Source: Planctomycetota bacterium
GTDB taxonomy: Bacteria > Planctomycetota > Planctomycetia > JALXBF01
NCBI GenBank assembly: GCA_026991575.1
Contig: JALXBF010000156.1
Span: 1 to 41,154 of the forward strand
Length of the DNA stretch: 41,154 nucleotides
Direction of reading: 5' to 3'
Translations under genes and position numbers: made by a program
Notes under the pieces: model-generated
What the model saw: only the letters and a program-made list of their open reading frames with translations
Told to the model about the DNA's origin: nothing
The model's database searches: none
Part shown: positions 18,060-21,576 of the stretch, piece by piece
How positions within the stretch are numbered: the first letter of the stretch is position 1
How the letters are laid out: every line of letters starts with the position of its first letter

Positions 18060-18414
18060 TCAATGAGGACTCCCGGACAGCCGAGCCGCCAGGCAGGCCG
18101 CTAGTTCCGCTTGCCTTCGGATGTACCACATCGGCCTGCCATCCACGAGCACGCGCCCCGCGCGCGTGGTCGTTTCGATCGCGTGAATCCACGGTCAGCC
18201 TTCCGCAGGTGCTGGCCAATTGGCACGACGGAGGATAGCCTGTGCCGATGAGCTTCGAACTGGACTCCGCCGGGTTGCGGCGTGGGCTGGCCTTCATGCT
18301 CGATAGGCCACACGGCAAGTTCTCCTCACGTCCCCCAGGTGCCGAGAGCCGGCTCACATTCACCCGACGGGACACGTCCGCCGGCAGTTGTCCCCGTTCG
18401 AGGCTCACGGTCAC
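18060..18414 (-). pseudogene. Possible frameshifted small gene after the NrdD-like gene
   Basis: No intact frame fills this stretch, but three frames in turn look protein-like. One begins with GTG overlapping the upstream stop as GTGA (18414). A second begins at a GTG (18313) with GAGGAG about 8 bases upstream and reads WPIEHEGQPTPQPGG until TAG at 18101. A third, open from about 18194 to a TGA at 18060, reads AIETTTRAGRVLVDGRPMWY. GC-rich third positions hold in each. Joining them needs at least one frameshift near 18160-18194. This may be a decayed gene, a base-calling error, or chance; no function is assigned. The flanking bases 17984-18059 show nothing else. Confidence 0.3.
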
Positions 18415-20381
18415 CTGCCCGCGTCGCGCCAGAGCGGCTCCTCGGAACTGACGTGTGGCACGAACTGGATGCGAACCACGGAGCTCGTTTCATACGCCCA
18501 GTTCAGCGCCTCTGAGACTGTCTCCGGCGCCCACGCTCCAGGCCTGGGCAGCGGCACAAGGAGCGTCCCCCCCTTGGCTCTACGGTGCACCTGACCAGTC
18601 CTATAGATCTGCTCGCGCAGCCCCCGACCGATCCCCCAGGACGTCACCCCCGCCAGGCACTCTTCAAGCCGTTCGCCCGTAGCCACCGCGGTCGGCCGAG
18701 CGCGATCAATGCGTACAGGCACCGCGTAGGCGTTGCCCAGTCGCTCCGCCAGTCGACGCAGCGCGTCGACGTAGGCCACGGCAGCAGCCATGCCGGTGGG
18801 GTGGTCCGCAATCCCGTAGCCAGTCAGGCGACGCACCGCGGCGTCTAACCCCACCGGGCACAGCAGCAGAGCAGCTTGCTGGAGCCGCCGCCCGGCGGCC
18901 AGTTCTAGGGGAAGCTGCTCACGGAGCTGCTCACGACGGCGGACCGCGGCCCGGAGCGTCAACTCGCACATCGGTTCGAACCGACCGCGGAGCAATTCCC
19001 CCGGATCACCTTCGGAATCCAGGAGCAGCCGGCACATGTCGAGGTGAACGACCAGCAGGCTCGTGCCGGCGATGCCCGACAGCAGCCCGTCACCGGCCGT
19101 GGACACGTACCGGTCCAGCACGAAGCGCAACCGACCGCCGGTCAGCGCGATGGCCAGAGCCGCGTGAGCGGGACGGTCCAGCCGATCGGGCACCTCCGGA
19201 ACCCAGTGAAAGTCGAACGTTAACCGCGGCAGGTTATGGCACTCGTCCCGGAAGCGGTCCAGGAGGACGGTCGCTGCCGAGCGGACACGCCGCAGGAGCT
19301 GCTGATCGGGCGCGGCGCGGAACAGCGGCCCCGGCGCAACGTGGGGGTGCGCCCGTGGCGGAACGCGCGCGTAGAGGTTGACGATGAGGTCAACGGGTGA
19401 GTGCACCGCCAGCGTCTGCAGCTCGGCCCAAACGGCCTCGGCCAACTCATAGGCCTCGTCCTCCGACGACGTGCACAGCCCGATGGCCACGTCGACCAGG
19501 TCCATGGCGAGCAGCCGGCCGGCGTATGGCCGCAACTCTGCGAGCGCGCGGCCAAGTGCCGGCAGGAATTCTGCCGGCGACGCAGCCTGACGCGTTAGAG
19601 CCGCTGCATCGAACGTCACACCAGCTAACTGGCCAGGCACCCATGGCCCCTCGAGCTGCACGGTGGCTTGTTGGTGGAGCGCGATGACATCTGCCGGAAG
19701 CTCGTGGGCAAGCGATTGCTCGCGCCAGAACGTCTCCGCCACCGCCCACGCCGCCGCCTCTGGCCCACCGCGCTGGCTTCGGTCTCGCGGGGCAACCTTC
19801 AGGTATACCGTGCCAGGTGGTGTGATTCGCGCCGAGAAGTCAAGCCGCCGAAGTTCAACATTGGCAAGTGCACAGATAAGCTCGTCGCTGACCTCGGTCG
19901 CTTCCATTCGCACCAGGGCACGTTCTACCCGGCGGGCCACCAGCGCACAGTCCTCTGCGGACAGCGTCGTCCGCTCCTCCAACAGCCGCCGCAGCCAGCC
20001 TTTGTCCCAGCCTTCGGCCGGCACGTCCGCCGGCTCACCATCCCGATGCCAGCGCACCCGTGCTCGGAACGCGGCACGCCGCCGGGCGAAATCGTCGTAG
20101 GCCTCCGCCAGTTCGTGCTGGCCGGTGTTCTCCAGGGACTTGACCACCCAGTCGGCCAGCTCTTCGGAGTCGACCGTGCCACCGTCGCTGGCCTTGGCTG
20201 CCATGAACAGCACCAGGCTGGTCAGCTCCTCGGCTTCCTCGATCGCCAGTGGCCGGCCTGCATCTTCGGACGCAGCCAGAATGGCGTCGCGGAGGCGGTT
20301 GCGATCACAGGGAGCGAGCGTCTGGTCGCGTTTGCGTACCCAGCGGATCGTTTCGCTGTCGTGCATCGGTTCTGACGTCAT
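18411..20381 (-). CDS. NrdD-like ATP-cone protein lacking the glycyl-radical domain
   Basis: A 656-aa protein. Residues 13-100 are an ATP cone (WVRKRDQTLAPCDRNRLRDA, ending AEAYDDFARRR). The rest follows class III ribonucleotide reductase (NrdD) block by block: ELPADVIALHQQATVQLEG (about 227-245) where NrdD has its HIHDLD segment; LPRLTFDF near 385; LLVVHLDMCRLLL near 445 matching the INLPRL-type strand; VGLDAAVRRLTGYG near 510; and GGTLLVPLP near 605. It ends where NrdD has the zinc-binding CxxC pairs and the glycyl-radical loop, and the MGCR-type thiyl-cysteine site is absent. It is therefore probably not a reductase; a nucleotide-sensing role is inferred. The ATG follows nrdR by 14 bases. 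Confidence 0.65.
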   Translation of the reverse strand: MTSEPMHDSETIRWVRKRDQTLAPCDRNRLRDAILAASEDAGRPLAIEEAEELTSLVLFMAAKASDGGTVDSEELADWVVKSLENTGQHELAEAYDDFARRRAAFRARVRWHRDGEPADVPAEGWDKGWLRRLLEERTTLSAEDCALVARRVERALVRMEATEVSDELICALANVELRRLDFSARITPPGTVYLKVAPRDRSQRGGPEAAAWAVAETFWREQSLAHELPADVIALHQQATVQLEGPWVPGQLAGVTFDAAALTRQAASPAEFLPALGRALAELRPYAGRLLAMDLVDVAIGLCTSSEDEAYELAEAVWAELQTLAVHSPVDLIVNLYARVPPRAHPHVAPGPLFRAAPDQQLLRRVRSAATVLLDRFRDECHNLPRLTFDFHWVPEVPDRLDRPAHAALAIALTGGRLRFVLDRYVSTAGDGLLSGIAGTSLLVVHLDMCRLLLDSEGDPGELLRGRFEPMCELTLRAAVRRREQLREQLPLELAAGRRLQQAALLLCPVGLDAAVRRLTGYGIADHPTGMAAAVAYVDALRRLAERLGNAYAVPVRIDRARPTAVATGERLEECLAGVTSWGIGRGLREQIYRTGQVHRRAKGGTLLVPLPRPGAWAPETVSEALNWAYETSSVVRIQFVPHVSSEEPLWRDAGR

Positions 20382-20395
20382 CGGGCACCTGGGCC

Positions 20396-20887
20396 TCAGC
20401 TCCCCCGTTTGCCCCCAGCGGAACGGCGACGCGAGCGACGGTCCAGGAACGGTTTCAGCTCATCCACGAAGTCGGTCACGTCTTGGAACTCACGGTACAC
20501 CGATGCAAACCGCACGTAAGCGACACTGTCCAGCGCACGCAGACGGTCAATCACCAGCTCACCGATGACCTGCGACGGCACTTCGCGATCAAAACGGCGG
20601 TACACCTCCTGCTCCACCTCGGCCACCAACTGTTCGATCTGCTCGGCACTCACCGGCCGTTTCTCACACGCCTTTTCCAACCCGATTCGGATCTTCTCGC
20701 GATCGAACGCCACGCGGCGGCCGTCCTTCTTGATTACCTTCAACGGCCGACGCTCGATCCGCTCGTAGGTCGTATAGCGCGCGCCGCAGGCAAGGCACTC
20801 GCGGCGCCGCCGGATTGCCGTGCCGTCGTCGGTTGTCTGAGTATCGATCACCCGGTCACGGTTTTCGTGGCAACTGGGGCACTTCAC
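20396..20887 (-). CDS. nrdR: Transcriptional repressor NrdR
   Basis: A 163-aa repressor of ribonucleotide reductase genes that senses ATP/dATP. The N-terminal zinc ribbon is complete (KCPSCHENRD ... RRRECLACGARYTTYER), followed by the ATP cone (VIKKDGRRVAFDREKIRIGLEKACEKRPV) and the family C-terminus DSVAYVRFASVYREFQDV. The start is the GTG at 20887, giving the canonical beginning KCPSC; the open frame further upstream is not NrdR-like. A Lys/Arg-rich tail ends the protein. It sits 29 bases after pncA and 14 bases before the NrdD-like gene. I saw no NrdR box in the window. Confidence 0.95.
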   Translation of the reverse strand: MKCPSCHENRDRVIDTQTTDDGTAIRRRRECLACGARYTTYERIERRPLKVIKKDGRRVAFDREKIRIGLEKACEKRPVSAEQIEQLVAEVEQEVYRRFDREVPSQVIGELVIDRLRALDSVAYVRFASVYREFQDVTDFVDELKPFLDRRSRRRSAGGKRGS

Positions 20888-20916: not shown

Positions 20917-21576
20917 CTAGACCAGGACCACCTCCTCGGCACAGACCAGCTCGATGCCGGCGTCGCGATAGCGCCGGCAACACGCGTCGAATTGACCAGG
21001 GTCCACCGCTCGGGTCAAATCGGCGACGATGCACACACGAAAGCCTTCGGCGCGCGCATCCAGGGCTGACCAGCCCACACAGTAATCGAACGCCAACCCC
21101 CAGACTACAACGCGCTCAACGCCCTTCTCCCGCAGGTAACCCGCAAGGCCTGTAGCGATGCGTTTGCCATCCGGTCCGTAATTCTCGCGGAAAGCGCTGT
21201 AGCTGTCCCGGTCCCGGTGGAATCCTTTCCGCAAGATGAGCACGAAGCGGTCCAGAGGCAACCCGGGATGGATGCGCGCCGTCTCGCTGCCCTGCACCGC
21301 ATGGTCAGGCCAGAGCGTTTGCGGATGACCGTACAGGTCGATCGTCTCGAAGGGTCGCTTGCCCGGATGGCTGCTGGCGAACGAGACGTGGCCCGGCGGA
21401 TGCCAGTCCTGCGTAACCACGGCCTGAACCGGCTCGAGCCGTTCCAGGAACCGCCGGCCCGGTTCGACGATCCTGTCCCCCTCGGGCACCGCAAGCTCCC
21501 CTCCTGGCATGAACGTCAGCTGCGGATCCACCACGAGGATGACCGTATCGTCCGGGTTGACCTCAAACCGTGCCAC
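20917..21576 (-). CDS. pncA: Nicotinamidase (isochorismatase-like, PncA family)
   Basis: A 219-aa amidase that should convert nicotinamide to nicotinate for NAD salvage. The catalytic triad is visible as Asp17 (VVDPQLTF), Lys117 (ILRKGF) and Cys166 (GLAFDYCV). Metal ligands Asp57 and His59 (QDWHPPGH) and His92 (LWPDHAVQG) are also present, which distinguishes it from generic isochorismatases. Length is typical. It is the first gene of the minus-strand group with nrdR and the NrdD-like gene, and is divergent from the amidohydrolase gene across about 160 bases. Confidence 0.92.
   Translation of the reverse strand: MARFEVNPDDTVILVVDPQLTFMPGGELAVPEGDRIVEPGRRFLERLEPVQAVVTQDWHPPGHVSFASSHPGKRPFETIDLYGHPQTLWPDHAVQGSETARIHPGLPLDRFVLILRKGFHRDRDSYSAFRENYGPDGKRIATGLAGYLREKGVERVVVWGLAFDYCVGWSALDARAEGFRVCIVADLTRAVDPGQFDACCRRYRDAGIELVCAEEVVLV

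Follow-up and report, generated by a model that had tools for sequence, protein, structure and literature searches.

The window (the whole stretch of 41,154 nucleotides of a planctomycete genome that was analysed) carries on its minus strand a gene for a protein of 656 residues, directly behind nrdR (table 1). Because the nrdR stop codon occupies 20396–20398, only 14 bp separate it from the ORF downstream. An earlier note, made from the bare letters, had described the same spacing and had given both products an ATP-cone; each point holds. The isochorismatase-family gene upstream is a possible operon start for nrdR and the gene of interest, and downstream lies a MoaC gene in convergent orientation.

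Table 1. Features of the locus, in coordinates of the window.
Feature	Position	Strand	Match
Gene for pseudoenzyme, almost certainly NrdD-derived (656 aa, ATG start)	18411..20381	(-)	
nrdR (GTG start; zinc ribbon + ATP-cone)	20396..20887	(-)	TIGR00244, 195 bits
Isochorismatase-family hydrolase, upstream of nrdR, same strand	20917..21576	(-)	PF00857, 63.4 bits
ATP-cone 1, residues ~13–108	20058..20345	(-)	PF03477
Second ATP-cone-like domain, residues ~124–186, without KRDG hairpin	19824..20012	(-)	hhalign vs cone 1
NrdD barrel-like region, residues ~205–642, about ten alternating strands in model	18456..19769	(-)	
Stretch without the NrdD thiyl-cysteine loop (CCR), residues ~387–440; exact position alignment-dependent	19062..19223	(-)	
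Counterpart of the NLPR strand, VVHLDMCRL, Asn → Asp448	19023..19049	(-)	

Ancestry of the 656-residue protein

Plain HMM scans of the protein recognise one domain only, an ATP-cone at residues 15–95 (PF03477, 45.4 bits against a curated cut-off of 25.8), and a sequence search of the PDB chains with it gives no relevant match. Residues ~124–186 align with this first cone (hhalign probability 90.6, E 1.3e-6) and form a second, degenerate ATP-cone-like domain, which the catalytic NrdDs of planctomycetes have too.

If the scans see nothing beyond the cone, what is the remainder? To answer this we compared a barrel-only profile, built from residue 205 onwards of the window protein and its three orthologues, with the barrels of 27 catalytic-type NrdDs. 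The two align over 412 collinear columns with a probability of 97.6 and E of 4.1e-12; the reversed control gave 0.5 and 0.12. As a single sequence the window barrel reaches E 0.065 against the NrdD profile, too weak when taken alone. AlphaFold models were made for the window protein (pLDDT 69.6, pTM 0.58) and for one orthologue (pLDDT 73.3, pTM 0.63), both of moderate confidence, from an alignment of the four dead proteins with no catalytic NrdD in it. Searched against the PDB, the window model has class III NrdD as all of its top 22 matches (E 1.1e-14) and the orthologue model as its top 28 (E 9.4e-12), while class I and II enzymes rank lower in both searches; TM-scores are modest, about 0.4–0.6. 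The NrdD barrel that the earlier note had expected of a structure prediction is thus found, with some ten alternating strands.

The alignment with a catalytic NrdD (L009) bears out the segment-by-segment likeness that had been noticed by eye. HIHDL stands opposite VQLEG, VTLNMTRL opposite VVHLDMCRL, IGLNGMNE opposite PVGLDAAV and TGGT opposite KGGT; the CCR cysteine loop faces a gap, and the C-terminus falls where the zinc/glycyl-radical domain of L009 begins. Might only the cone be homologous, residues 205–642 being an unrelated domain? The HMMER result and the weak single-sequence score would suit that reading. It is nonetheless ruled out, for practical purposes, by the collinear four-orthologue profile and the two fold searches, and intermediates in the same gene position (G345, 1.8e-25; G320, 8.4e-22) lie above the PF13597 cut-off. 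Across the window genome PF13597 matches neither the 656-residue protein nor any other protein, so that another NrdD elsewhere in it was discarded. We conclude that descent from class III ribonucleotide reductase, an anaerobic enzyme sensitive to oxygen, is near certain.

Loss of catalytic parts across the phylum

Among 59 related genomes, full-length orthologues occur in three of the class (one is Planctomycetes bacterium Pan216, CP036279), at 24–28% identity and each directly after nrdR. The four-orthologue profile finds matches in 287 of the 392 genomes of the phylum, some of the weakest being probably the ATP-cones of other proteins. The loci inspected are of two kinds. Catalytic-type NrdDs have HIHD, the CCR cysteine and four zinc cysteines; the other proteins, mostly of 600–850 residues, are without the catalytic parts, and these proteins we call dead. 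A further 60 loci were taken, giving an alignment of 94 proteins. In a quick tree 58 full-length dead proteins, from 22 family-level groups, form one group (SH-aLRT 100) whose branches are very long. Since three other dead proteins (L019, L051 and L052) branch outside it, the number of losses lies between one and three.

What has been lost? The thiyl cysteine of the finger loop (the position of T4 C290), the second active-site cysteine (C79) and the NxN substrate flap (PMC11226230) are each present in 27 of 27 catalytic-type NrdDs and in none of the 58 dead proteins. The window protein stops ahead of both the four zinc cysteines and the glycyl-radical loop, and the three orthologues and 58 relatives have the same end or unrelated tails. 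A frameshift or truncation artefact at the 3' end, a doubt left standing by the earlier note, is thereby ruled out; the missing thiyl-cysteine site and the stop at the zinc/glycyl-radical part, both claimed there, are confirmed. The activase has gone as well: to go by the compared gene positions, nrdD is followed closely by an NrdG-like radical SAM gene in 27 of 27 genomes where the NrdD is of catalytic type, and in one of 41 where it is dead. To judge from these residues, the 656-residue protein, a class III NrdD homologue, would be devoid of radical chemistry.

Several individual cases may be recorded here. The single exception among the 41 is G218, where an NrdG2 gene (TIGR02495, 149 bits; L067 4076–4876) adjoins the dead nrdD. 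The sole NrdG-like match in the window genome (contig C32; L102 2962–3666) scores 91 bits, below the cut-off, and lies near no nrdD, that of the 656-residue protein included; its neighbour is a gene for an AAA-type ATPase, named from sequence, and we rejected it as an activase. Four of the 58 (group f31: L087, L091, L094 and L095) still have all four zinc cysteines, and their genes do not lie beside nrdR. L019 and L051 (group f57) have kept the zinc cysteines and lost the thiyl cysteine, with Gly replaced by Asp (RIADYF); they may be an intermediate stage or an independent loss. QxxLF-like motifs (QPRLFD, VQEDLFS, GQKTLF) resembling those that bind the sliding clamp end eight proteins, the four of f31 together with L006, L007, L086 and L093; the window protein has none.

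Are the dead proteins still under selection? In five close pairs, drawn from relatives and excluding the window gene, whose nearest relatives are 24–26% identical to it, dN/dS is 0.17–0.35 overall and broadly similar in cone, middle and barrel (single-part values 0.09–0.48). Four pairs of catalytic NrdDs give 0.02–0.04, so that selection on the dead form is roughly ten times weaker. The ratios in these relatives therefore indicate purifying selection and functional proteins, though less constrained ones. Conservation across the dead clade is highest in the cone, with its KRDG motif (K 86%, R 88%, D 90%), and in the middle domain. The lysine and arginine correspond to K50 and R51 of Streptomyces coelicolor NrdR, which contact the nucleotides (PMC9110341). 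Conserved positions are few in the barrel and for the most part structural; among them are Gly511 (100%) and the Asn of NLPR (90%), in place of which the window protein has Asp. The column table of the dead clade reveals no new conserved polar cluster. The window cone retains V15, K17, R18 and D19 and departs from the family at G20 (to Q), F25 (to C) and K29 (to R), which makes nucleotide binding less sure for this protein than for its family.

These data bear on two further readings. A decaying nrdD relic, functionless and open by chance, would account for the weaker selection and the very long branches; it is very improbable in the face of 58 full-length frames in 22 family-level groups, of the dN/dS values and of a strongly conserved cone motif. 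That the barrel serves a new enzyme, reused for some other nucleotide reaction, gains from selection on it being as strong as on the cone; the scarcity of conserved barrel positions, their mostly structural nature and the absence of a new polar cluster make this improbable too, if less so.

Pairing with nrdR and a possible sensor role

In about 53 of the 58 (52 by locus reading, plus G240) nrdR lies directly upstream, so that the nrdR-neighbour pair proposed for survey is widespread in the phylum. The exceptions are the four f31 loci, with nrdR elsewhere, and G139, in which no nrdR was found. Catalytic nrdD in the phylum also follows nrdR. The pairing is thus ancestral, the adjacency may be inherited rather than functional, and as evidence of partnership it is weakened accordingly. 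On the other hand, the survival of the pair through such divergence suggests a role shared with nrdR.

Which reductase would such a pair serve? A single large-subunit reductase occurs in the window genome: NrdJ, of class II (NF005122, 1433 bits) and lacking an ATP-cone. Its promoter holds two palindromes, CCCCAAGATATTGGGG and CCCAATATCTGGGG, 32 bp apart from start to start (L099 4970–5016), just after a TTGACA and upstream of the likely nrdJ start. NrdR boxes have a known consensus and spacing, and since the pair resembles this arrangement NrdR probably represses nrdJ. Within the window we found no NrdR boxes beyond chance. A strict paired-box pattern gave no match in the whole genome, although as written it would miss the nrdJ pair too.

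What, then, might a reductase without catalysis do beside nrdR? We propose, with a probability of about 0.6, that it is a pseudoenzyme of NrdD descent which senses ATP/dATP within the circuit of NrdR. The ancestor would have been a class III reductase in an nrdR–nrdD–nrdG gene set. Comparison shows what its descendant has retained, namely the N-terminal cone, the cone-like domain that follows and the scaffold of the barrel; the thiyl cysteine and its partner cysteine have disappeared, as have the NxN flap, which covers the substrate, the zinc/glycyl-radical domain and the activase. The cone would bind ATP or dATP, and the protein would associate with itself, or with NrdR, in a nucleotide-dependent manner. 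By contact with NrdR, or by competing with it for nucleotide, it would report the dATP:ATP state within the circuit, change how much dATP it takes to repress nrdJ and tune the repression of this class II gene. For this sensor mechanism taken alone we put the odds a little short of even. That the phylum holds a whole family of such pseudoenzymes, a second dATP/ATP sensor beside NrdR through which a former reductase controls the expression or activity of its successor, we offer still more tentatively. The NrdD homology, the loss of catalysis and the pairing with nrdR claimed in the earlier note stand, through profile–profile comparison, fold search, residue counts, synteny and the missing NrdG; the role it proposed, nucleotide sensor or regulator, would be in keeping with an ATP-cone that has been retained and is under selection.

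In the main rival reading the dead NrdD acts directly on NrdJ, binding ATP or dATP and contacting the class I or II reductase as a trans-acting allosteric subunit, and has itself no direct role at NrdR. Such a subunit could supply the activity switch that the cone-less NrdJ of the window genome lacks, and a PF02867 reductase occurs in nearly all checked genomes with the dead form. Yet the gene sits with nrdR and not with nrdJ (contigs C156 and C58 of the window genome, G000), and we know of no class II enzyme of the NrdJ type controlled by a trans-acting ATP-cone subunit; we consider this rival unlikely. Could the protein still be a reductase, its radical supplied otherwise, for instance by a glycyl-radical domain in trans? 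The phylum does have stand-alone proteins with that domain, beside NrdDs that are otherwise catalytic and lack the glycyl loop (see below). Not one of the 42 genomes with a dead form has such a protein, 40 of 41 have no NrdG neighbour, and C79 and the NxN flap are gone; without a thiyl cysteine reductase activity is improbable from the outset, and in our estimate it has next to no chance. A part in a defence system was dismissed, as PADLOC gave no match.

How does the proposed sensor compare with known systems? With class III NrdD (PF13597, TIGR02487; Prevotella copri 8P23/8P28, S. thermophilus 9D3X, T. maritima 4COI) it shares the N-terminal cone, the barrel order, the layout of strands and helices and the position after nrdR; the differences are the losses listed above. 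It is like NrdR (TIGR00244) in having an ATP-cone with the KR nucleotide contacts and in belonging to the same gene pair; unlike NrdR, it has a reductase barrel in place of a zinc ribbon or DNA-binding domain. Betaherpesvirus R1 homologues are likewise relatives of a reductase large subunit and turned to a different function on losing catalysis, but they are class I viral proteins of an unrelated lineage with no ATP-cone sensor role. In class I enzymes with an ATP-cone on NrdB, the cone is again carried by a component that itself reduces no nucleotides; unlike the pseudoenzyme, that component generates the radical for its own enzyme (PMC5794259).

If the proposal is right, a bacterial regulator has been derived from a ribonucleotide reductase that was no longer catalytic but was kept for its cone and scaffold, and the reading of dATP levels by the NrdR circuit becomes testable in planctomycetes. 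In the literature searched, which left out most subscription journals, we found neither a description of this pseudoenzyme nor a study of NrdR in this phylum.

A glycyl loop on a separate small protein

In some NrdDs of the phylum the RxxGY loop is the single catalytic part to have been lost (as in RRLVSHDK or SNSCCS; L111–L132, L036). Of the 22 genomes with a loop-less NrdD, 21 encode a separate small protein whose C-terminal end carries an intact glycyl loop of the NrdD type (TRIVGYYSRVNNWNKSK.GEL.DR..G.Y); the 22nd genome, in which none was matched, is 73% complete. The open frames of these small proteins (L133–L152) are mostly of 115–190 residues, and seven of eight genomes have one beside an intact NrdD as well. 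It looks as if the small protein either furnishes the glycyl radical of a class III reductase in trans or serves as a spare part in the way that GrcA does for pyruvate formate-lyase. This pairing is separate from the pseudoenzyme finding.
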